A stretch of 27,193 bases of DNA from positions 1 to 27,193 of IMG/VR virus record IMGVR_UViG_3300030012_001565; one strand, given 5' to 3'. The notes beneath the pieces are model-generated. The model was not told where the DNA came from. It saw only the letters and a list, made by a program, of their open reading frames with translations, and made no database searches. This document shows positions 8,706 to 24,325 of this stretch, piece by piece. Numbering within the stretch: position 1 is the first letter of the stretch; every line of letters begins with the position of its first letter. The position numbers were made by a program, and so were the translations under genes. The stretch is from a virus.

Positions 8706-8713
8706 CAAAGTTA
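8706..8713 (-). promoter_or_regulatory. TAnnTTTG -7 promoter box (TAACTTTG)
   Basis: Minus-strand TAACTTTG lies 16 bases upstream of the scaffold ATG at 8690, in the 42-base gap after the portal stop. It probably gives an extra transcript for scaffold and capsid. Confidence 0.55.
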
Positions 8714-13414: not shown

Positions 13415-13673
13415 ATCCTTGTTTTGTGTCTACCCTTGACGGACCCTTGTCGGCTATATCTATGTCGGCCCTTTCATTCTCAATCTTTGTAAGTATCTCG
13501 AATGCATCGAATATAGCTAATTTTTTTGTAGCTGCAGCATTTTTTAATCTATCTGCCGCTAATTCATCTTCAGGGTCTATCTTTATAATATCCTCCTTAG
13601 CTACTTTTATAAGCTGCTCAACAGCCTTCATTCCCGCATCTATAATCCTAAGCTTTATATCTTTAGTATCCAT
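13392..13673 (-). CDS. Putative terminase small subunit
   Basis: 93 residues, almost entirely helical, with a charged N-terminal helix (AVEQLIKVAKEDIIKI), a second helix (ADRLKNAAATKKLAIFDAFE) and an Arg-rich tail (FAERRSR). It lies directly before terL and overlaps it by 23 bases; its own start overlaps the stop of the upstream gene. A small helical protein immediately before terL is the usual position of the small terminase, which recognises the packaging site. No helix-turn-helix signature is certain, so the assignment rests on position, size and composition. Confidence 0.6.
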   Translation of the reverse strand: MDTKDIKLRIIDAGMKAVEQLIKVAKEDIIKIDPEDELAADRLKNAAATKKLAIFDAFEILTKIENERADIDIADKGPSRVDTKQGFAERRSR

Positions 13674-14236
13674 TATATCTTTATTGTTATCTGATGGTCA
13701 TACATCCTATACAACTTCTCACCGTCCACCTCAAACTCATACTCACTGTCAGGTTTAAAGCATACCGTGTCTCCACTAGATATACCCTTAGACTTTAGAT
13801 AATCATTAGGATATTTCATAATACCTACTAAGGGCTCCTCGCTAAAAGGCTTAAATATATACGAGTCTGATGTAGGCACAGGTTTTACAAAGCAGTACCT
13901 GTCGTATGAATGCCACTCTCCATCCTGCTTATACATAAAGAACTGCTCCTCATCTATAAAGAATAAGTCATCCTTGAAGAAGCTTTTGCCACTCTGCTGT
14001 ATACCCTTCATATCGTTGTAGAACTTAAAGACGTTATGGTGAACTAATAATGTATCTCCTACTTTTATAGGTCCTTCATATCCTAGTGGTGTCTCTATTA
14101 CTTCAGCATATCTATTAGATACTTTATGGTCTTCCTCCGATGTGCTAGTAATAAAATCAATACCGCCTATAGACTTGACGTTATCATATCGCCTTCCGTT
14201 GTAAGGTTTTGTTATGAAATAAAATGGTGATTTCAT
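13673..14236 (-). CDS. Tandem GroES-like (Cpn10-like) co-chaperonin candidate
   Basis: 187 residues that read as two Cpn10-like halves. In half one, residues 21-31 are KSIGGIDFITS, closely like the GroES mobile loop KSAGGIVLTGS, followed by RYAEVIETP and IKVGDTLLVHHNVF at 57-70, corresponding to GroES GEVLAVG and VKVGDIVIF. In half two, RYCFVKPV at 113-120 is followed by SSGDTVCFKP (153-162) and a GEKLYRMYDHQITIKI tail that resembles the GroES end (NEEVLIMSESDILAIV). The similarity is my own reading of short motifs and needs profile confirmation. The gene sits between a small beta protein and terS/terL, far from the groEL-groES operon. A role as a specialised lid for the phage or host GroEL is inference; a plain virion protein with a related beta fold is the alternative. 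Confidence 0.55.
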   Translation of the reverse strand: MKSPFYFITKPYNGRRYDNVKSIGGIDFITSTSEEDHKVSNRYAEVIETPLGYEGPIKVGDTLLVHHNVFKFYNDMKGIQQSGKSFFKDDLFFIDEEQFFMYKQDGEWHSYDRYCFVKPVPTSDSYIFKPFSEEPLVGIMKYPNDYLKSKGISSGDTVCFKPDSEYEFEVDGEKLYRMYDHQITIKI

Positions 14237-16813: not shown

Positions 16814-17284
16814 TTACCATAATGCAACAATATCTGTAGCTGTGGTTGCTGAGCTTGCAAAAACTCTAACTACTTGAACAGGAATAAAGCTACCTGCAAG
16901 AACACCTATAAATGTAACGTCATCACCACCTGCTGTAGTTACCTTAATTTTCCCCGCTCCACCAACATAAAGAACGCATCCGTTGTTTGGTGCTTCTGAA
17001 GTATTATATATAGAATAAGGGTCTCCCGAGCCTATTACCCCTGTAACGGTTAGTGTTGTTGCATTATCTATAGCAGTTACCGTCATAGCAACAGCACCTG
17101 TATATACAATGTCACCGACATTTACTCCATTTGTAGTAAAGTCCTGTGTATTGTCTATGAGCTTTGTTGGTGCATTTGAAGTAGTGGTACTACTCACCGC
17201 AAGCATCGCAGGATTTGGAATATCTATAGTGTTACTTGGTATTACTTCTAAGGCTCTGTAAGCCTGTAATTTTTGATAAGCCAT
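16814..17284 (-). CDS. Head spike base-like virion protein
   Basis: 156 residues. The C-terminal third (CVLYVGGAGKIKVTTAGGDD, then VTFIGVLAGSFIPVQVVRV and TTATDIVALW) strongly resembles the spike-base protein family of gene transfer agents and phages (RCAP_rcc01079-like), which sits on the capsid surface. Residues 41-84 (TNGVNVGDIV and TVTAIDNATTLTV) form a beta module shared in style with the neck protein at 3880-4824. A TATCTTTG box lies 22 bases upstream of the ATG. The protein is nearly neutral and has no signal peptide. The family assignment is from memory of the C-terminal pattern. Confidence 0.68.
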   Translation of the reverse strand: MAYQKLQAYRALEVIPSNTIDIPNPAMLAVSSTTTSNAPTKLIDNTQDFTTNGVNVGDIVYTGAVAMTVTAIDNATTLTVTGVIGSGDPYSIYNTSEAPNNGCVLYVGGAGKIKVTTAGGDDVTFIGVLAGSFIPVQVVRVFASSATTATDIVALW

Positions 17285-18351: not shown

Positions 18352-18543
18352 TTACTTATTTTTAAAAGGGAACACTCTGTTTAAAGAATCACGTCTGTCA
18401 TCACACCCACAATCTTCAACTCCTAATGCTTCAGAAACTTTTTTAACTGCAGTCTTTATACCTGTAGCCCTTGTAAATTTCTCTACACTATCTCCAAGCC
18501 CTCGACTCGGTTGATTGAAAGTTGGTTTCTGTTTGTATGACAT
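18352..18543 (-). CDS. Small protein with C-terminal CGCxxRRxxLNxxFPF motif
   Basis: 63 residues. The C-terminus carries CGCDDRRDSLNRVFPFKNK. A short CGCxxR(R/K)xxLNxxFP ending of this sort recurs in small phage proteins, in my recollection, but its function is unknown. The N-terminal half is basic and Pro/Gly-rich. The two close Cys residues could bind metal. The gene lies between the 132-residue basic protein and the LamG gene with gaps of only 3 bases. Confidence 0.72.
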   Translation of the reverse strand: MSYKQKPTFNQPSRGLGDSVEKFTRATGIKTAVKKVSEALGVEDCGCDDRRDSLNRVFPFKNK

Positions 18544-18546
18544 AGT

Positions 18547-18945
18547 TTATTTTTTAAATCTACCTTTCATTGTTGGACATTTTTTAGTGCCCGTTGCCTT
18601 GCACTTAGACTTATCCTTTCTTGACTTCTGTCTATCTGACTTAGCTTTCTTTAACCTACCCGCTGCCTTTGTCACTTTCATTTTAACGTCATGCCCTCTG
18701 AAAGATTTACTACCTTCTTTTTCAATCTTTCTTTGTTCCTTTTCTGCTGCCTTCTTTTTTTCATAAGCAGTCATTGTTTTATTAACCTTGGTTTTAGGAA
18801 CCCTAGTCTTACGTGGACCACCGGGAGAAACATCAAGCATCATTTCTTGCTGCTTAGTTAATCCATTCTTTTTTTTCTTCGGCTTCTTCTTGTCTCCGTT
18901 GTCAAACTGTGTAGCCGCTAAAGGCTGTGATATTCTATATGCCAT
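18547..18945 (-). CDS. Highly basic low-complexity protein
   Basis: 132 residues with extreme lysine content (stretches such as KKKPKKKKNGLTKQQ and KKAAEKEQRKIEKEG) and few hydrophobics; the C-terminus is CKATGTKKCPTMKGRFKK with two Cys. Such a protein would bind nucleic acid non-specifically; DNA compaction in the virion or interference with host RNA/DNA are options. It is the largest in the cluster of small basic genes. Confidence 0.75.
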   Translation of the reverse strand: MAYRISQPLAATQFDNGDKKKPKKKKNGLTKQQEMMLDVSPGGPRKTRVPKTKVNKTMTAYEKKKAAEKEQRKIEKEGSKSFRGHDVKMKVTKAAGRLKKAKSDRQKSRKDKSKCKATGTKKCPTMKGRFKK

Positions 18946-18947
18946 TT

Positions 18948-19055
18948 TTATACGTTTTTAAACATTAACTTGCTGATGAACTTATTCCAAGTTCTTTTGC
19001 ATAATAGTCCAAAGGAAATAATTTTATTTCCTAACCATACTAAAGATTTTCCCAT
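18948..19055 (-). CDS. 35-residue basic amphipathic peptide
   Basis: The ORF starts at ATG 19055 (MGKSLVWLGNKIISFGLLCK...) and ends at 18948. It is basic with alternating hydrophobic residues, so it could be an amphipathic helix. It fits exactly between the 53-residue gene (2 bases away) and the 132-residue gene (2 bases away), and that exact packing is the main evidence that it is real. Confidence 0.55.
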   Translation of the reverse strand: MGKSLVWLGNKIISFGLLCKRTWNKFISKLMFKNV

Positions 19056-19057
19056 AG

Positions 19058-19219
19058 TTATTTCTTTTTAGCTTTACCCTTAACCTTCTTCAGGTTAGGG
19101 TTTTTCTTTTTAGCTTTTGCAGAAGCCTTGCGACTTGCACTTGCAAGAATAGCTGAGGCTGCTTTCTTAGAGTAACCTCCTTTCTTTGCAATCTTAGCTG
19201 CAACTTTTTTGAAGCTCAT
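19058..19219 (-). CDS. Histone-tail-like Lys/Ala/Ser-rich peptide
   Basis: 53 residues, starting MSFKKVAAKIAKKGGYSKKA and ending in GKAKKK, with about 40 percent Lys and a Lys-Ala-Ser pattern like histone H1 tails. Its ATG overlaps the stop of the upstream 71-residue gene by one base (TAATG), which supports coupled translation. A DNA-compaction or virion-packaged role is inferred from composition alone. Confidence 0.68.
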   Translation of the reverse strand: MSFKKVAAKIAKKGGYSKKAASAILASASRKASAKAKKKNPNLKKVKGKAKKK

Positions 19220-19434
19220 TACTTACGGATTAACTTCCCTAAGTGCTCCTTAACTTTTCCATCCTTGATGCACTTGTGCTCATAAGACATTGAGTGGTCT
19301 CCACCGTAAGCGTGACCATAATCTTTCTTAGACATTGCCTTAGACTCATCTCTACGAGACTTCATTGACTGAGACTTCTTTCCGTGCTTCATTCCTAATG
19401 ACTCATCGAGTCTTGCGTTATATCCTTGTTTCAT
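19219..19434 (-). CDS. Small basic His/Met-rich protein
   Basis: 71 residues with charged Lys/Arg/Ser/Asp content and several His (HGKKSQSMKSRRDESKAMSK and the GHAYGGDHSMSYEHK region). No recognised family. A TATATTTG box lies 17 bases upstream of the ATG, so this gene starts its own transcript. It is followed by the Lys/Ala-rich gene with a one-base overlap. Confidence 0.7.
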   Translation of the reverse strand: MKQGYNARLDESLGMKHGKKSQSMKSRRDESKAMSKKDYGHAYGGDHSMSYEHKCIKDGKVKEHLGKLIRK

Positions 19435-19450
19435 TGTTTATTTGTTTTTA

Positions 19451-19458
19451 CAAATATA
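19451..19458 (-). promoter_or_regulatory. TAnnTTTG -7 promoter box (TATATTTG)
   Basis: Minus-strand TATATTTG, 17 bases upstream of the ATG at 19434 and abutting the stop codon of the 96-residue gene at 19459. Confidence 0.5.
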
Positions 19459-19749
19459 CTAATATTTTCCTTGACGATTTTTTGGTGAGCTCTTGGTTGA
19501 ACCACCCTTACCTGCCCATAGATTCTTACACGCCCAATAACGTGCAGTGAGCTTTGACTTTGCAGTGCCACACTTGTGGCGAGCTCTGAATGACTTACGT
19601 GCTGCAGGAGAATAGTTGTGACCATATCCCTTAGCACCAAAGTGAATTAGCTTCTCCTTGCCGCCCTCACAGGCTTTCACCATTCTCTTTTTACCGGGCC
19701 TGTCTGATGCAGTAACCCTGTTACATTTCATCTTGCTCTTGCTTGCCAT
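19459..19749 (-). CDS. Cys-containing basic phage protein (HFGAKGYGHNY / ARHKC motif)
   Basis: 96 residues. It contains KLIHFGAKGYGHNYSPAARK, then FRARHKCGTAKSKLTARYWA and CKNLW. I recall similar small proteins in many marine phage and large-virus genomes, with the order HFGAKGY, ARHKC, LTARYW, C.LW, but no known function. Four Cys and a strong positive charge suggest a zinc-stabilised nucleic-acid-binding domain; that is inference. It lies 9 bases downstream of the previous gene in the cluster. Confidence 0.72.
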   Translation of the reverse strand: MASKSKMKCNRVTASDRPGKKRMVKACEGGKEKLIHFGAKGYGHNYSPAARKSFRARHKCGTAKSKLTARYWACKNLWAGKGGSTKSSPKNRQGKY

Positions 19750-19758
19750 GTGTGTAAA

Positions 19759-19944
19759 TTAAAGTCTTTGTAATCCCTGCAATCCCTGCAATCCCTTTAT
19801 GGTTATCCTCTTTCGTTTTTTCTTAGGCTTCTTAGGTTTCTTAGGGGCTCTCTTCTCTAGGCTAGATAGTCTGTCAAGAACAGCATTACGAAATGCTATG
19901 TCATTCTTTTCCTTGTCCGTTAACTTTTTCTTCTTATCACCCAT
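19759..19944 (-). CDS. Basic protein with a lysine/proline track and a C-terminal LQG repeat
   Basis: 61 residues. A charged helix (DKKKKLTDKEKNDIAFRN) is followed by a KKP track (PKKPKKPKKKRKR) and the C-terminus GLQGLQGLQRL. The repeat is encoded by a 9-bp tandem unit at 19772-19796. Its ATG overlaps the stop of the upstream gene by one base. Pro/Lys tracks of this type bind nucleic acid in other proteins. Confidence 0.68.
   Translation of the reverse strand: MGDKKKKLTDKEKNDIAFRNAVLDRLSSLEKRAPKKPKKPKKKRKRITIKGLQGLQGLQRL
19772..19796. repeat. 9-bp tandem repeat AATCCCTGC (two full, one partial copy)
   Basis: Copies at 19772-19780 and 19781-19789 are identical; a third is truncated at 19790-19796. 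On the minus strand it encodes the GLQ repeat at the C-terminus of the 61-residue protein and is a likely slippage site. Confidence 0.85.
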
Positions 19945-20198
19945 TATCTTTTGGTATATTGTTTTGTAACCTTTCCTGCGGGAGTGTTAGCTACTACCTG
20001 CTGACCTTTGCGGCCAAATCTTTTTTTCTTTTTTGCTGTAGCTGCACGCTCAGACTTGCTCATACTCTGAGCCTTCTTTAATGGTAAGCATCTATCAGGA
20101 TTCTTTTTGTTCTTGCTTGTACCACAAGCCCCCTTGATAGAACCGTCAGTTCCTATACGAACCCACTTCTCATCTCGCCACTTCTTAAGCTCGCCCAT
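19944..20198 (-). CDS. Small basic phage protein (KWVRIGTDGSIKGACG type)
   Basis: 84 residues, starting MGELKKWRDEKWVRIGTDGS, then IKGACGTSKNKKNPDRCLP and a basic tail with RAATAKKKKRFGRKG. The pattern W.(D/E).W..I...G...(G/A)CG.........RC.P resembles a small family that I recall from marine phages and giant viruses, with no assigned function. Two Cys are spaced like a short metal or disulphide site. One base separates it from the 56-residue gene upstream. Confidence 0.72.
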   Translation of the reverse strand: MGELKKWRDEKWVRIGTDGSIKGACGTSKNKKNPDRCLPLKKAQSMSKSERAATAKKKKRFGRKGQQVVANTPAGKVTKQYTKR

Positions 20199-20199
20199 A

Positions 20200-20370
20200 T
20201 TAGTATGAGGACTTCATTTTTTTCTCCATACCATAACCGGGGTTATTCTTCATAGAGCCATTCATAGTCTTTGCAAACTCAGTAGCCTGAGCTTTACCTA
20301 CTGCATTATAAGGAAACACTTTAGTTTTCATTTTTCCTGTGTTTCCACACTTGTACTTTACGGTTGGCAT
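20200..20370 (-). CDS. Small basic protein (56 residues)
   Basis: The ORF starts at ATG 20370 (MPTVKYKCGNTGKMKTKVFP) and ends MEKKMKSSY. It fits exactly between neighbours (2 bases and 1 base away), which is why I take it as real. It is basic, has Lys and Gly/Asn turns, and carries one Cys. No family is recognised. Confidence 0.66.
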   Translation of the reverse strand: MPTVKYKCGNTGKMKTKVFPYNAVGKAQATEFAKTMNGSMKNNPGYGMEKKMKSSY

Positions 20371-20372
20371 AA

Positions 20373-20498
20373 TTACTTCTTTTTAGGTTTACTGTGCATA
20401 GATTTTAGCATTTTGTCAATCTTTGCAGCTTGACCCTTGTGCATTGCAGAAGCCTTCTTTAGCTCTGCTGAAATTGTTTTTAGTTTCTTTGCGTCCAT
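20373..20498 (-). CDS. Small Lys-rich helical peptide (41 residues)
   Basis: The ORF starts at ATG 20498 (MDAKKLKTISAELKKASAMH) and ends SKPKKK. It is one charged helix plus a basic tail. It is packed 2 bases from each neighbour. A competing 64-residue frame at 20416-20610 overlaps two better-placed genes and is rejected. Confidence 0.64.
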   Translation of the reverse strand: MDAKKLKTISAELKKASAMHKGQAAKIDKMLKSMHSKPKKK

Positions 20499-20500
20499 AG

Positions 20501-20665
20501 TTATTTCTTTTTTGACCCCTTCGCATAGTTAGGGTCTTTACAATATTTACTTGCAGCCATATTAGCATATGCTGATGGGTAGGTGTCAAAGGTTCTCTTG
20601 GCCCAAGCAATACCTGCAGGACAAATCTTATTACCCTTCTTCTTTACTCTACCACTCTTAGCCAT
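20501..20665 (-). CDS. Small Cys-containing basic protein with YPSAYANMAASKYC motif
   Basis: 54 residues: MAKSGRVKKKGNKICPAGIA, then WAKRTF.TYPSAYANMAASKYCKDPNYA. The ICPAG...AKR.F..YPSAYAN..ASKYC pattern is one I associate with very widespread small proteins of marine phages and large viruses with no known function. Two Cys and a basic surface are conserved in that pattern. Its ATG overlaps the stop of the EF-hand gene by one base. Confidence 0.75.
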   Translation of the reverse strand: MAKSGRVKKKGNKICPAGIAWAKRTFDTYPSAYANMAASKYCKDPNYAKGSKKK

Positions 20666-20865
20666 TATGAACCTGTTCCTGAGTAGTTTCCTGTACCAAC
20701 GCCCTTAAAAACTTCTTTTTTTGCTTTAGCTTTCATCTTAGCGTTAGCTCGCTGCTTTTCACTTGTGCTTAACTTACCATCTTTATTTAAGTCATATGGG
20801 CTAAAATCAGATGACTTTGTTGCAGGTAGTGGAGTATCTCCTCCGTTTCTTATGGTTTTCTTCAT
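20665..20865 (-). CDS. Small basic protein with an EF-hand-type calcium loop
   Basis: 66 residues from ATG at 20865. A longer frame could begin at a TTG at 20886, but that start lies in the promoter box, so ATG is preferred. Residues 25-36 read DLNKDGKLSTSE: Asp at 1, Asn at 3, Asp at 5, Gly at 6, a hydrophobic residue at 8 and Glu at 12, a complete EF-hand/dockerin-like calcium loop. The sequence after it is Lys/Ala-rich. Only one loop is present, so pairing, if any, would be by dimerisation. First gene of the small basic cluster, with a TAAATTTG box upstream. Confidence 0.72.
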   Translation of the reverse strand: MKKTIRNGGDTPLPATKSSDFSPYDLNKDGKLSTSEKQRANAKMKAKAKKEVFKGVGTGNYSGTGS

Positions 20866-20883
20866 AACTTTTTTATATTTACA

Positions 20884-20891
20884 CAAATTTA
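20884..20891 (-). promoter_or_regulatory. TAnnTTTG -7 promoter box (TAAATTTG), divergent region
   Basis: Minus-strand TAAATTTG lies 19 bases upstream of the EF-hand gene ATG at 20865. The gap to the divergent plus-strand winged-helix gene at 20907 is only 41 bases, so the upstream part of this promoter lies inside that gene. Confidence 0.5.
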
Positions 20892-20906
20892 CAAAATTAA
20901 AATTTA

Positions 20907-21332
20907 ATGAAATCAGATTACCTAAAGTATTGGAGGGTCATACGTCAGTTCATAAAGTCTAAGTATGGACTCACACAAGCAGACCTTGATATGTTATTGT
21001 TCCTCTACACAGAGGACTACTTCTCTAAGGATAAGTTTCAAGAGTTTAATGAGCTACTAAGTTGGGATGTGACACGCTTCGATAGGCTAAGGCGTGATAA
21101 ATGGATTGAGGTATTCAGGAGAAATATGGGAAAACGAAAGGCACTATACACACTCTCGTATAAGACCAAGCGAATGATTGACTCGCTATACAAGAAACTA
21201 AATGGTGAAGAGATACCTACCTCACCATCTAAGAATCCTATGTTCAAACGTAATGTAAAATATTCAGATAAGGTATATAGAAATTTTATCAAGGAGATGA
21301 ATGCGTCTATAAGACAACAACGACACGAATAA
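20907..21332 (+). CDS. Winged-helix DNA-binding protein, MarR-like candidate regulator
   Basis: 141 residues. The central part, YGLTQADLDMLLFLYTEDYF, DVTRFDRLRRDKWIEVFRR and KRKALYTLSYKTKRMIDSLY, follows a MarR-like winged-helix: an entry helix, a helix with LLFLYTEDYFS, a recognition helix with the DVTRFDRLRRDKW part, a beta wing with KRKALYTLS, then a dimerisation helix. The C-terminal tail is basic. This plus-strand gene is embedded in a minus-strand late region and is divergent from the EF-hand gene with 41 bases between, so it could repress or activate the small basic gene cluster; convergent with the 69-residue gene at its end. Regulator function is inferred. Confidence 0.75.
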   Translation: MKSDYLKYWRVIRQFIKSKYGLTQADLDMLLFLYTEDYFSKDKFQEFNELLSWDVTRFDRLRRDKWIEVFRRNMGKRKALYTLSYKTKRMIDSLYKKLNGEEIPTSPSKNPMFKRNVKYSDKVYRNFIKEMNASIRQQRHE

Positions 21333-21557: not shown

Positions 21558-21565
21558 CAAAGATA
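21558..21565 (-). promoter_or_regulatory. TAnnTTTG -7 promoter box (TATCTTTG)
   Basis: Minus-strand TATCTTTG, 14 bases upstream of the ATG at 21544, just after the stop of the GroES gene at 21572. Confidence 0.55.
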
Positions 21566-21571
21566 ATGAAA

Positions 21572-21829
21572 TTAAATAACCACTACCACGTCACGCTCCT
21601 GAATGATGGTGTAAGGTTTGTCGTTAATAATCATAGTGTACCCCGACCTCTTGTCGTAGTATATCATATCACCCTCACCGATAACTGATACGTCACTGCC
21701 CGGCTTTACAACCTTGCCCTTCTTATACCTGAAGCTACCCGCATCCTCTGCAGATAGCAATAACCCTGATGAGGTCTTTACCTCCTCATCAATCGTCTCA
21801 ATAACTATATTCTTTCCTATAGGTCTCAT
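21572..21829 (-). CDS. groES: Phage GroES-type co-chaperonin (Cpn10)
   Basis: 85 residues, against about 97 in E. coli. The start MRPIGKNIVIE matches the Cpn10 N-terminal strand; residues 17-28 (VKTSSGLLLSAE) are the mobile loop with the GroEL-contacting hydrophobic triplet LLL in place of IVL; KGKVVKPG and GEGDMIYYDKRSGYTMIIND match the core strands; IIQERDVVVVI is the C-terminal strand. The roof-loop region is shortened, as in other phage co-chaperonins such as T4 gp31 relatives. It is the last gene of an operon led by GroEL and caps its folding chamber. Confidence 0.85.
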   Translation of the reverse strand: MRPIGKNIVIETIDEEVKTSSGLLLSAEDAGSFRYKKGKVVKPGSDVSVIGEGDMIYYDKRSGYTMIINDKPYTIIQERDVVVVI

Positions 21830-22040: not shown

Positions 22041-22121
22041 TTATAAATCGTTAATTTCTATTATCATCAATGCAATATGAAACGTAGCGATAATTAATAA
22101 TATAATTCCAATAATATTCAT
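22041..22121 (-). CDS. 26-residue hydrophobic peptide overlapping the GroEL stop
   Basis: The ORF starts at ATG 22121, overlapping the GroEL stop by four bases (ATGA), and reads MNIIGIILLIIATFHIALMI before IEINDL and stop. It is a single membrane-span peptide. The tight overlap supports translation by coupling, but a 26-codon frame in AT-rich DNA can arise by chance. Confidence 0.4.
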   Translation of the reverse strand: MNIIGIILLIIATFHIALMIIEINDL

Positions 22122-23740
22122 TGTGCCTCATATGTTCTTGCCATTGTAACAATAGCGTCAGTTGATAACATCGTCACCGCAACACTTACTGCGTTCTGAA
22201 GTGCTGTACGTGTAACCTTCACCGGGTCAATGACACCCATCTTATACAGGTCCCCAAACTCACCCGTTTTAACATTGTATCCCATTGAGCCTCCAACCTT
22301 GTCAGTGTCCACCGTCTCGTGGGTAAGACCTGCGTTGTTGAATATCTGCGTCATAGGTGATAGCAGGGCACAACTTAAAATTGCGTAAGCAATTTTTTTC
22401 GAATCTGAAATGTCACTATCCTTAGCTGACAGCAGTCGCTCACACTCATCGTGGAGTGCTACCCCTGACCCCGGAAGGATGCCCTCCTCCATAGCTGACC
22501 GCACAGCACACACCGCATCATCAACCCTGTCATACAGCTCCTTCTGCTCTAGGTCAGTGTTACCACCAACATATATCACACCTATGCCTCCTGTCAAGGA
22601 TGCTATCCTCGTAAGGATAAACTCCTTCTCCTGCTTGTGTGGGTTGTTGTCGTGCTGTACCCATAGCTCAGCAACACGCTCCTCTATCTCAGCGTTGTTA
22701 CTGTCATCATCCTTGAGGATGACCGTTGAGTCCCTCCCAACTATCACCTTGGAAGCGTGACCCAAATCGCTAAAGTTAATTAGACTCAAGTCATCCCCTG
22801 TCTTCTCTGAGAAGTATGTGGCCCCAACACTCAATGCAATGTCCTGCATCAGCTCGTGCTGCTTGTACCCGAAGTTAGGCGGTGCTACATTACACATACT
22901 CAATTTACTTTTCATAACATTCGCAGCCAATGTGTTTACAACATTAGTGCTAGCAGGTGCCACAATAAGCAGCTTCTTCCCACCCTGTATGATTGGTTTC
23001 AATACGTTCTCAATCTGTAGGATGTTTGATATCTCAGCGTCACTAACCAAGATATATACGTCCTCCATTATGCACTCATCACGCTTGTGGTTGTTTATAA
23101 ACATCGGAGAGGTATATCCCCTGTCAACCTTTACACCATTAGTCACCTCTGAGTATGTCTCACTCGTCATTGACTTCTCCACCGTCACTATCCCATTCTC
23201 CCCCACCTCAGTGTGAACCCCCGCAATAATCTTTCCTATCTCCCTGTCATTGTTCGCAGAGATAGTAGCCACATCAAGAAGCCTCTGCTTGGTAACCTTC
23301 TTGCTCTTCTTCTTTAAACTAGCAACAACATCATCAGTCATTGATACCATATGCCTGAACACATCAACACGACTCACGTCAGGGTTGTCGTTCAACATAC
23401 TGATACCATTTGTAACCAATGCCTCTGTCAATACTATTGAGGTGGTGGTCCCATCACCCGCACTCGTGGCGGTCCTGTCTGCAGCCTCACGCATCATACG
23501 TACAGCTAAGTTCTCTACCGGGTCCAATAGGTCAATACTCTTGGCAACAGTTACACCATCCTTGGTTACTGTTATCCCATGTGTGTGATGAGGTGACTCA
23601 ATGAGCACAGTGTTACCACTAGGACCCAACGTGCTCTTCACAGCGTTAGCCATCTTTGTTATACCTCTGATTAATTTCTTTTGTCCTTCAGAACCGAAGT
23701 CCAAGTTCTTGGGTGTAAACCCCAACTGATTACTACTCAT
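22118..23740 (-). CDS. groEL: Phage GroEL-type chaperonin (Cpn60)
   Basis: 540 residues, against 548 in E. coli, nearly full length. ATP-site motifs are present: LGPSG at 38-42, GDGTTT at 95-100 with Asp96 (D87 in E. coli) and RVDDAV at 405-410 with Asp408 (catalytic D398). The position of D52 is Glu48, as in mitochondrial Hsp60. In the apical domain the substrate/GroES site GYLSPYF is GYTSPMF (Tyr209, Met213, Phe214), so one key aromatic is lost. The C-terminus ends ARTYEAQ without the GGM repeat tail. It forms the double-ring folding cage. A TATCTTTG box lies 25 bases upstream, and the operon continues to groES. The DNA appears more GC-rich than most neighbours, so transfer from a cellular source is possible. 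Confidence 0.93.
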   Translation of the reverse strand: MSSNQLGFTPKNLDFGSEGQKKLIRGITKMANAVKSTLGPSGNTVLIESPHHTHGITVTKDGVTVAKSIDLLDPVENLAVRMMREAADRTATSAGDGTTTSIVLTEALVTNGISMLNDNPDVSRVDVFRHMVSMTDDVVASLKKKSKKVTKQRLLDVATISANNDREIGKIIAGVHTEVGENGIVTVEKSMTSETYSEVTNGVKVDRGYTSPMFINNHKRDECIMEDVYILVSDAEISNILQIENVLKPIIQGGKKLLIVAPASTNVVNTLAANVMKSKLSMCNVAPPNFGYKQHELMQDIALSVGATYFSEKTGDDLSLINFSDLGHASKVIVGRDSTVILKDDDSNNAEIEERVAELWVQHDNNPHKQEKEFILTRIASLTGGIGVIYVGGNTDLEQKELYDRVDDAVCAVRSAMEEGILPGSGVALHDECERLLSAKDSDISDSKKIAYAILSCALLSPMTQIFNNAGLTHETVDTDKVGGSMGYNVKTGEFGDLYKMGVIDPVKVTRTALQNAVSVAVTMLSTDAIVTMARTYEAQ

Positions 23741-23764: not shown

Positions 23765-23772
23765 CAAAGATA
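23765..23772 (-). promoter_or_regulatory. TAnnTTTG -7 promoter box (TATCTTTG) for the chaperonin operon
   Basis: Minus-strand TATCTTTG lies 25 bases upstream of the groEL ATG. It is in the 56-base divergent gap to the plus-strand nuclease-like gene at 23797, whose own promoter must lie here too; a plus-strand TAACTTTA near 23785 is a weak candidate. Confidence 0.6.
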
Positions 23773-23796: not shown

Positions 23797-24144
23797 ATGG
23801 ATTACTGCTCAGATTTTAAATACGACCTAAAGATAGGTCAAGCAAAAGAACAAGAACTATCAAAAATATTTCACGAAAAAAGAATAGAAGTTAAGCTTGA
23901 TAGAAAGGCTCACGATACAGGAAATATATTTATTGAGTACGAGAGCCGAAACAAGCCAAGTGGTATCACAACCACTCAGGCAGAATACTACTGCATAGTT
24001 ATAAATGATATATACCACATCATAGAAACATCAAAACTAAAAGACAAGTGCCGAAGATATCTAAACACAAATAGAGATGTTGTGGGAGGAGATAACAATA
24101 CCTCCAAGGGAATACTACTTCCATCTACAGAGCTATTACAATAA
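23797..24144 (+). CDS. PD-(D/E)XK nuclease-like protein
   Basis: 115 residues. Residues 11-35 LKIGQAKEQELSKIFHEKRI then EVKLD contain a helix with Glu18/Glu20 followed by a strand with the E-x-K signature (Glu31, Lys33, Asp35). Then TGNIFIEYESRNKPSGITTT and QAEYYCIVI follow. The order E...E-V-K-x-D...TGN(I/L)xIE...R.KPSGI...A(E/D)YY resembles small phage PD-(D/E)XK endonucleases and resolvases. It is a single-domain protein without extra parts. Plus strand and divergent from groEL, so it is transcribed separately from the late genes. A role in host DNA breakdown or recombination is inferred. Confidence in the fold is moderate. Confidence 0.68.
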   Translation: MDYCSDFKYDLKIGQAKEQELSKIFHEKRIEVKLDRKAHDTGNIFIEYESRNKPSGITTTQAEYYCIVINDIYHIIETSKLKDKCRRYLNTNRDVVGGDNNTSKGILLPSTELLQ

Positions 24145-24152
24145 TGACACGA

Positions 24153-24325
24153 TGTCGAATCTTTTCTTTCCCTATCTCTCTCTCTATTCCCCTTTAACGT
24201 GTAAACTTTTTCTTGTGGTCAAATCGTTTTTGAAATCGACATTTTCGACACTACTATTGATTATCAGTTAGTTAGCTTCTTAATATCGACACTAAATCGA
24301 CATTAAAATGTCAATAATCGACACT
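24153..24325. repeat. Cluster of TCGACA(C/T)T repeats, iteron or operator candidate
   Basis: Five direct copies of TCGACAYT start at 24236, 24245, 24286, 24297 and 24318. The spacings of 9, 41, 11 and 21 bases are close to whole turns of the helix. An inverted TGTCGA lies at 24153 and an inverted TGTCA at 24309. The surrounding 24145-24350 has no gene. Phased short direct repeats are typical of replication-initiator iterons or of multi-site operators. Confidence 0.6.

Follow-up and report, generated by a model that had tools for sequence, protein, structure and literature searches.

What do twelve very small, strongly basic genes, packed head to tail, do in the genome of a tailed phage? The question is raised by a 27,193-base virus record, IMG/VR IMGVR_UViG_3300030012_001565 (the window, here, is this whole stretch), in which twelve open reading frames (ORFs) of 35-132 amino acids, g01 to g12, occupy positions 20865 to 18352 of the minus strand. 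An earlier look at the letters alone (the sequence-only reading) had taken them for one set that could supply virion-packaged, DNA-condensing or histone-like proteins, or else an early host-takeover package. As judged by sequence comparison, the core of this cassette consists of three recurring families, YPSAYAN (g02), KWVRIG (g05) and HFGAKGY (g07), around which variable small basic genes gather. We give about even odds (roughly 0.5) to the reading that the core encodes head-associated, probably packaged, nucleic-acid-binding cargo, which would be like the internal proteins of phage T4 in role, not in membership.

A run of small basic genes

All twelve ORFs lie where they had been placed, and their description as nearly all Lys-rich is borne out: every one is basic, with an isoelectric point (pI) of 9.6-11.2 and a Lys plus Arg content (K+R) of 20-38%. 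The lysis and structural genes downstream are mostly acidic. The cassette is flanked by a divergent plus-strand gene on one side and a LamG-domain gene on the other, and its orientation is that of the structural genes. The one-base TAATG overlaps at 20665, 19944 and 19219 are genuine; the gaps of 1-9 bases described earlier need one correction, as 24 bases, among them the promoter-like sequence TATATTTG, separate 19459 from 19434.

A coding-potential caller accepts 11 of the 12 ORFs, omitting the 35-amino-acid ORF at 18948-19055. Chance ordering does not explain this clustering of small basic genes. In the called gene list the longest such run is 13 consecutive genes (the 11 called ORFs plus two neighbours, one of them on the opposite strand), a length reached in 0 of 100000 shuffles of all 44 genes and in 43 of 100000 shuffles restricted to the 29 small genes. 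Comparison with relatives points to purifying selection in the eight cassette genes for which a ratio of nonsynonymous to synonymous differences (pN/pS) was obtained, the range being 0.13-0.35: g02, 0.15 (132 pairs); g03, 0.16 (26); g04, 0.27 (32); g05, 0.25 (137); g06, 0.13 (2 pairs only); g07, 0.18 (63); g08, 0.27 (37); and g12, 0.35 (49). Values are lacking for g01, g09, g10 and g11. The Cys pairs noted previously prove to be invariant in the YPSAYAN and KWVRIG families. Two Cys are also invariant in SYCAR, a family of other phages described below, as is a CGC in the g12 family, and the HFGAKGY family has four Cys, each conserved at 86-92%.

A conserved core and a variable remainder

Recurrence was followed in 243 loci plus the source sequence, obtained from three IMG/VR scans (best 80 loci each); the loci are not all independent and were chosen mostly by three of the source phage's own genes, and families were built by single linkage. 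The largest families are YPSAYAN and KWVRIG (167 members each), followed by HFGAKGY (86), g12 (75) and g08 (44). Removal of overlaps reduced the 180 entries with YPSAYAN, KWVRIG or HFGAKGY to 151, or 152 non-redundant loci with the source. YPSAYAN and KWVRIG are both present in 137 of these, and in all 137 they lie on one strand with YPSAYAN first. The survey of joint occurrence that had been called for finds a linked pair in constant order, and the earlier assignment of these motifs to widespread marine phage families was right, as IMG/VR and isolate matches show.

The pair typically has a third partner, which is HFGAKGY in 64 of the 137 loci and SYCAR in 55; 18 have neither (some are cut short) and none has both. 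This exclusion partly tracks lineage, yet both families also turn up in the other's usual type of locus. By hand count, SYCAR occurs in six groE- or p156-type loci (L054, L087, L094, L113, L159 and L198) and HFGAKGY in six loci of other type (L037, L055, L085 and L100-L102). The SYCAR family matches DUF6321 (PF19846) with 42.7 bits, against a cut-off of 28.5, and a Pfam profile search finds this domain in none of the twelve cassette ORFs. A suggested identity of the YPSAYAN family with DUF5872 was rejected, there being no Pfam match. Roseobacter phage SIO1 carries an HFGAKGY-family gene at 24065-24298 (L248:4001-4234; 87 bits), which is unannotated in the SIO1 record. In the literature searched, mostly titles and abstracts with few subscription papers, we found no description of a cassette like this one, which does not show its absence from print; in the papers searched, again mostly outside subscription journals, DUF6321 is likewise not mentioned, whereas DUF5754 is named in 2 and Tlr6F in 7, some of these using the term in another sense.

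The idea of a single set is partly right, the cassette having a conserved core and a variable remainder, of which g01, g06 and g09-g11 may be unrelated accessory genes. An appreciable, though less than even, chance attaches to the wider proposal that the site beside groES is an accessory hot spot, collecting unrelated small genes whose charge reflects convergent use or composition, with no common role. In groE-type loci the number of small basic genes in a row varies between 1 and 13; the g01, g06, g09 and g11 families have just 4, 3, 1 and 1 members; and in MW202828, a close relative, just two of the twelve families are present, HFGAKGY and g12. However, a hot spot does not account well for a core whose order is kept across lineages under purifying selection, or for its movement, as a pair, into blocks of head genes.

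Core genes lie among head genes

Three genomic settings were distinguished. In the first, that of the source phage, the order is GroEL, GroES, divergent gene, cassette, p156 (a 156-amino-acid gene) and lysis genes. In the second, which includes close relatives, YPSAYAN and KWVRIG lie between the portal gene and a putative scaffold gene, followed by a head gene; here "scaffold" is a label given for position and acidity, its PHROG having no function. The pair occupies this junction in 11 of the 54 non-redundant loci that have both portal and scaffold. Of these 54 loci, 21 also have a cassette-site marker; among the 21, 6 have the pair at the junction, 3 have it elsewhere, 12 have it at neither place and none has it at both. 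In the third setting, in another lineage, the pair follows a major head gene (phrog_371, E=3.4e-22) and precedes a virion structural gene (phrog_2941, E=1.2e-10). As for isolates, YPSAYAN and SYCAR genes lie between the scaffold and major capsid genes of P-SCSP2, and HTVC027P and 023Pt_psg01 have YPSAYAN, KWVRIG and SYCAR closely spaced in that order.

Fusions in other phages

Related modules are found within longer proteins. Cyanomyovirus proteins encoded near the terminase genes (S-RIM8 gp114, S-SM1 SSM1_115, Syn9 gp114 and one of RN05-S) combine a KWV-like region and a WPSAYAS region with a SYCAR domain at the C-terminus. Of these links, that of SYCAR is strong (five cyanophage proteins score 51-82 bits; hhalign 99.4%). 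The KWV and WPSAYAS links are weaker, at 55.8% and 36.9% with window-type alignments, rising to 87.3% and 67.8% when pelagiphage and other isolate intermediates are added; the remaining pairs of family and region reach at most 1.0% with intermediates and 0.9% with window-type alignments, except that in the latter HFGAKGY and family f49 score 7.2% and 4.5% against the SYCAR region. With the plain YPSAYAN profile the cyanophage proteins do not rise above the background of reversed proteins, and with the KWVRIG profile only that of RN05-S does. The KWVRIG protein of HTVC027P bridges phrog_23735, phrog_12753 and phrog_727. The phrog_727 / T4-GC119 cyanomyovirus proteins resemble the cassette in their KWV-like, WPSAYAS and SYCAR modules, a kinship that for the first two is moderate, not strong. 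They differ in being long single chains encoded next to terminase, whereas the source phage has separate small genes, with HFGAKGY replacing SYCAR.

A second kind of fusion involves prohead proteases. In Aeromonas phage 2L372X, gp101 joins a g07-like domain (residues 82-161) to Peptidase_S78_2 (residues 176-287, E=2e-20), and its gene lies between the portal and the head-decoration/capsid genes. In the "capsid protease" of phage ICP1, a match spans both the domain and the protease parts. This protein is taken as gp125, because the fold match is to ORF125 and because gp122-124 are coat, decoration and scaffold, in the accessible text of PMC10945586. These proteases share the g07-like domain with the cassette, but g07 has no protease domain. 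By these alignments, the core proteins appear as free-standing versions of modules that are fused elsewhere to one another and to head proteins. Because the families travel together, sit among head genes and are fused to head proteins, the core products probably act in or within the head.

Virion proteomes

By published mass spectrometry, the S-CREM2 virion contains 52 proteins, including ORF137 and ORF160 (PMC10665884). ORF137 has a C-terminal SYCAR domain (E=3e-26), and ORF160 has WPSAYAS with a KWV-like region (phrog_727, E=9.1e-49), although the KWVRIG profile does not find it at E<=1. These two are the only carriers in the four pieces of S-CREM2 available (about 155 of 175 kb), so that both carriers are in the virion list; the probability of this by chance is about 0.06, given 52 of 219 genes. 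Residues 17-70 of ORF160 (L257:16342-17235) match the N-terminus of phrog_696, a "major head protein" (E=4.8e-10). A capsid-targeting N-terminus was considered for ORF160 and set aside, as it is not common to other S-CREM2 proteins in the pieces searched. Overall, module carriers are reported in virions in 2 of 5 cases examined, the two of S-CREM2 and none from S-SZBM1, S-SM1 or Syn9.

Two observations touch on virion proteins more generally. S-SZBM1 gp137 (L261:6989-8362, taken as S-SZBM1_139), a protein of 457 amino acids encoded beside a cytidylyltransferase, is in the accessible virion list of that phage and contains a long stretch, rich in Ala, Lys and Ser, that resembles the tail of histone H1. 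The methylated phage proteins in the accessible part of a Cellulophaga protein-methylation paper (PMC13288928) could not be linked to the cassette.

Folds and relation to Tlr6F proteins

AlphaFold gives small folds of moderate confidence for g07 and g05 (predicted local distance difference test, pLDDT, 76.1 and 74.7). Among solved structures, the fold search finds none that resembles either: the best PDB match is at E=0.97 for g07, which also lacks any VIA match at Z>=2, and at E=3.7 for g05; sequence searches of solved structures with the cassette proteins give nothing useful. Weak AP2-like and integrase-arm matches of g07, at E of about 4, lack significance and were disregarded. Against predicted viral structures, g07 has 17 matches at E<=0.001, among them ORF125 of ICP1, an XkdF protein and one from Tunisvirus.

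A distant relation to DUF5754/Tlr6F proteins of polinton-like and giant viruses is suggested by a weak profile match and a predicted fold match. The profile score of g07 against DUF5754 (PF19058) is 21.9 bits (E=1.8e-4), under the curated cut-off of 27.4, and 35 of 50 HFGAKGY members (g07 and 34 of 49 relatives) match at E<=0.01, the best at 5.6e-5. Comparison of predicted folds, with models of moderate confidence, gives E=6.3e-4 for the Tunisvirus and E=2e-2 for a Chloriridovirus protein. Tlr6F is present in some phages, according to the accessible text of PMC4642659.

Comparison with the T4 internal proteins

T4 packages its internal proteins IPI, IPII and IPIII in the prohead core at about 300 copies each; they bind DNA at low salt, are wholly or partly dispensable and are ejected into the host, where IPI inhibits restriction (PMC9026906, accessible part). 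As far as that account goes, the cassette proteins are like them in being small, basic, several per phage and encoded with head genes; the two sets have no sequence relation that we could find. One copy of each cassette protein would carry a net charge of +170, and at the T4 figure of 300 copies each the set would balance about 40% of the phosphates in a genome of 60 kb.

By analogy, the core proteins would be made late and would enter the prohead or act inside it, where their Lys-rich surfaces could bind the packaged DNA and the invariant Cys pairs could form disulphides or bind metal. Roles like those of the T4 proteins would follow, for example neutralising charge, assisting in head assembly or passing into the next host. 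For the variable members, a common location and charge are probably involved, rather than one precise function. The separate parts of this proposal differ in strength. Head association of the core members is probable, whereas DNA binding in the virion, drawn from charge and the T4 precedent, is put at somewhat below an even chance. For "DNA-condensing" and "histone-like", terms of the sequence-only reading, the one basis is charge: neither an HU nor a histone profile matched, no solved fold like g05 or g07 was found, and none of the twelve has a Pfam match at E<=1 to HU, H-NS or histones.

Packaging itself, as first proposed, gains from gene position in three settings, from the prohead protease fusion and from the S-CREM2 proteome, and loses from the three other cyanophage carriers unreported in virions. 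The latter belong to a group of results that weigh against packaged, nucleic-acid-binding cargo. The S-SZBM1 SYCAR protein gp084, equated with locus _192 by numbering, is outside the 30 confirmed virion proteins in the accessible text of PMC9146016. S-SM1 SSM1_115 is labelled hypothetical and has no virion label (41 virion proteins were detected in that phage, in the accessible part of PMC3037559), and Syn9 gp114 has no virion label either. No proteome of a phage with free-standing core genes was found in the literature. An N-terminal capsid-targeting sequence of the T4 kind, which the prohead protease cleaves, is not common to the twelve N-termini, compared by eye, and no DNA-binding fold or profile was found for the cassette proteins. 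At 300 copies each the set would have a mass of about 27 MDa, too much for all twelve to reach such a copy number. Finally, the stretch of the third genomic setting also carries a ferredoxin-like moron.

Some of these results would suit core proteins that are head-assembly factors only, working alongside portal, scaffold or protease or inside the core of the prohead, and degraded or expelled before the virion matures. The genes adjoin those for portal, scaffold and protease, a g07-like domain is fused to a prohead protease, and groEL/groES is a neighbour in 44 loci plus 7; the accessible parts of three cyanophage virion reports do not list the carriers. We nevertheless regard this alternative as unlikely, as ORF137 and ORF160 are in mature S-CREM2 virions, in the accessible list, and the strong charge is left unexplained.

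A broader extension of the packaged-cargo reading, which we consider doubtful, is that YPSAYAN, KWVRIG and HFGAKGY/SYCAR form one exchangeable head-internal toolkit of unrelated tailed phages and, via Tlr6F, of polinton-like and giant viruses, encoded separately, joined to each other or joined to the prohead protease. On this view either HFGAKGY or SYCAR would serve for a single step, for instance the condensing of DNA or the attachment of basic cargo inside the prohead. Small genes of the core families are frequent and unexplained in the marine phages covered here; one family is distantly related to Tlr6F, a long-standing puzzle of polinton-like and giant viruses, and a link to the phage head gives the core a specific, testable role. 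Standard proteomics may also underestimate the internal protein of DNA-filled heads, since few usable tryptic peptides would come from Lys-rich proteins 40-100 residues long.

Promoter-like elements and timing of expression

The sequence TAnnTTTG, which we take to be the Bacteroidota -7 element, lies within 120 nt of the first cassette gene after the divergent gene in 49 of 51 cases. It is also present ahead of groEL and the structural genes, and so the timing of cassette expression cannot be read from sequence. Within the window it occurs 8-45 nt ahead of 9 of 44 gene starts (for example at 23765-23772, 21558-21565 and 8706-8713), where the random expectation is 2.6% per position; this set of nine suggests Bacteroidota-type promoters that would map transcription units. 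A sigma-70 promoter scan shows no excess (28 found, 31.1 expected), and the longer pattern TTTG-N17-23-TAnnTTTG has 5 matches, none near the cassette.

An early host-takeover package finds little in this arrangement: only the small size of the genes fits, the cassette being co-directional with the structural genes and TAnnTTTG preceding both. Peptides for takeover or anti-defence, whether injected or produced early, are improbable, even though the genes are numerous and variable as well as small, have their own promoter-like element and have a precedent in T4 IPI, a packaged restriction inhibitor ejected into the host (PMC9026906, accessible part). The core is strongly conserved across phages of unrelated hosts, and general profile searches gave no defence-related match, no search of a defence library having been made.

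A separate promoter-like element would also permit separate timing for proteins that bind RNA or ribosomes and tune translation late in infection, and small, Lys-rich proteins with Cys pairs do recall ribosomal proteins. We consider this role very unlikely. No ribosomal or RNA-binding profile scores above cut-off, no solved fold matches g05 or g07, and such a role does not readily explain why a head protease should carry the fusion.

The phage and its wider genome

The source, a marine phage, is a podophage contig, kin of Elemovirus and Cellulophaga phages. It has genes for TerL (phrog_6681, E=9.5e-179), the portal (phrog_6547, E=8.5e-142) and a head protein (phrog_13704, E=1.7e-102), as well as for an endolysin, a holin and, by Pfam, GroES. 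GroEL is assigned to 22118-23740 from its sequence, relatives having an annotated groEL beside groES. TerL matches at E<=1e-10 were found in 87 of 50,697 phage records (Flavobacterium 68, Cellulophaga 15, others 4), the best being MW202828 at 76.8%. A distant nucleotide search of phages returned two records only, and tblastn with KWVRIG on phage records returned one.

Table 1. Cassette genes, the adjacent divergent gene and promoter-like elements in the window
Feature	Position	Strand	Description
g01	20665..20865	-	66 amino acids, pI 10.0; weak EF-hand-like DLNKDGKLS stretch
g02 (YPSAYAN, core)	20501..20665	-	54 amino acids; phrog_27331 E=5.2e-25
g03	20373..20498	-	41 amino acids, Lys-rich; 31 members
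g04	20200..20370	-	56 amino acids; 39 members in 36 loci
g05 (KWVRIG, core)	19944..20198	-	84 amino acids; phrog_23735 E=3.3e-28
g06	19759..19944	-	61 amino acids, K+R 36%
g07 (HFGAKGY, core)	19459..19749	-	96 amino acids; replaced by SYCAR/DUF6321 in other phages
g08	19219..19434	-	71 amino acids
g09	19058..19219	-	53 amino acids, K+R 38%; called coding; phrog_379 DNA binding E=0.013, weak
g10	18948..19055	-	35 amino acids, doubtful gene; uncalled; tblastn matches in 6 of 243 loci
g11	18547..18945	-	132 amino acids, net charge +32; called coding
g12	18352..18543	-	63 amino acids; phrog_27568 E=6.5e-4
Divergent gene next to cassette	20907..21332	+	141 amino acids; phrog_17028 E=6.2e-11 (unknown function)
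Two TAnnTTTG promoter-like elements	20884..20899	-	upstream of g01
TATATTTG promoter-like	19451..19458	-	inside the gap before g08

Among the cassette genes (Table 1), g07 also has profile matches to phrog_220, a "minor head protein and DNA pilot" (E=6.6e-18), and to phrog_7595 (E=4.2e-14). Neither g09 nor g11 has a relative by sequence among the 243 loci. The divergent gene has 58 family members, recurs at the same place and has a weak match to a transcriptional regulator, phrog_12817 (E=0.032).

The window contains two GroES-like genes, both on the minus strand, one at 21572-21829 beside GroEL and the other, of 187 amino acids, at 13673-14236, just upstream of the terminase genes. The latter matches phrog_13932 (E=2.9e-24), and Elemovirus shows the same two-gene pattern. 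The p156 gene (16814-17284, minus strand), two genes downstream of the cassette, recurs alongside it, has 82 family members and encodes a C-terminus that resembles the tail-fibre PHROG phrog_12296 (E=4.3e-8).

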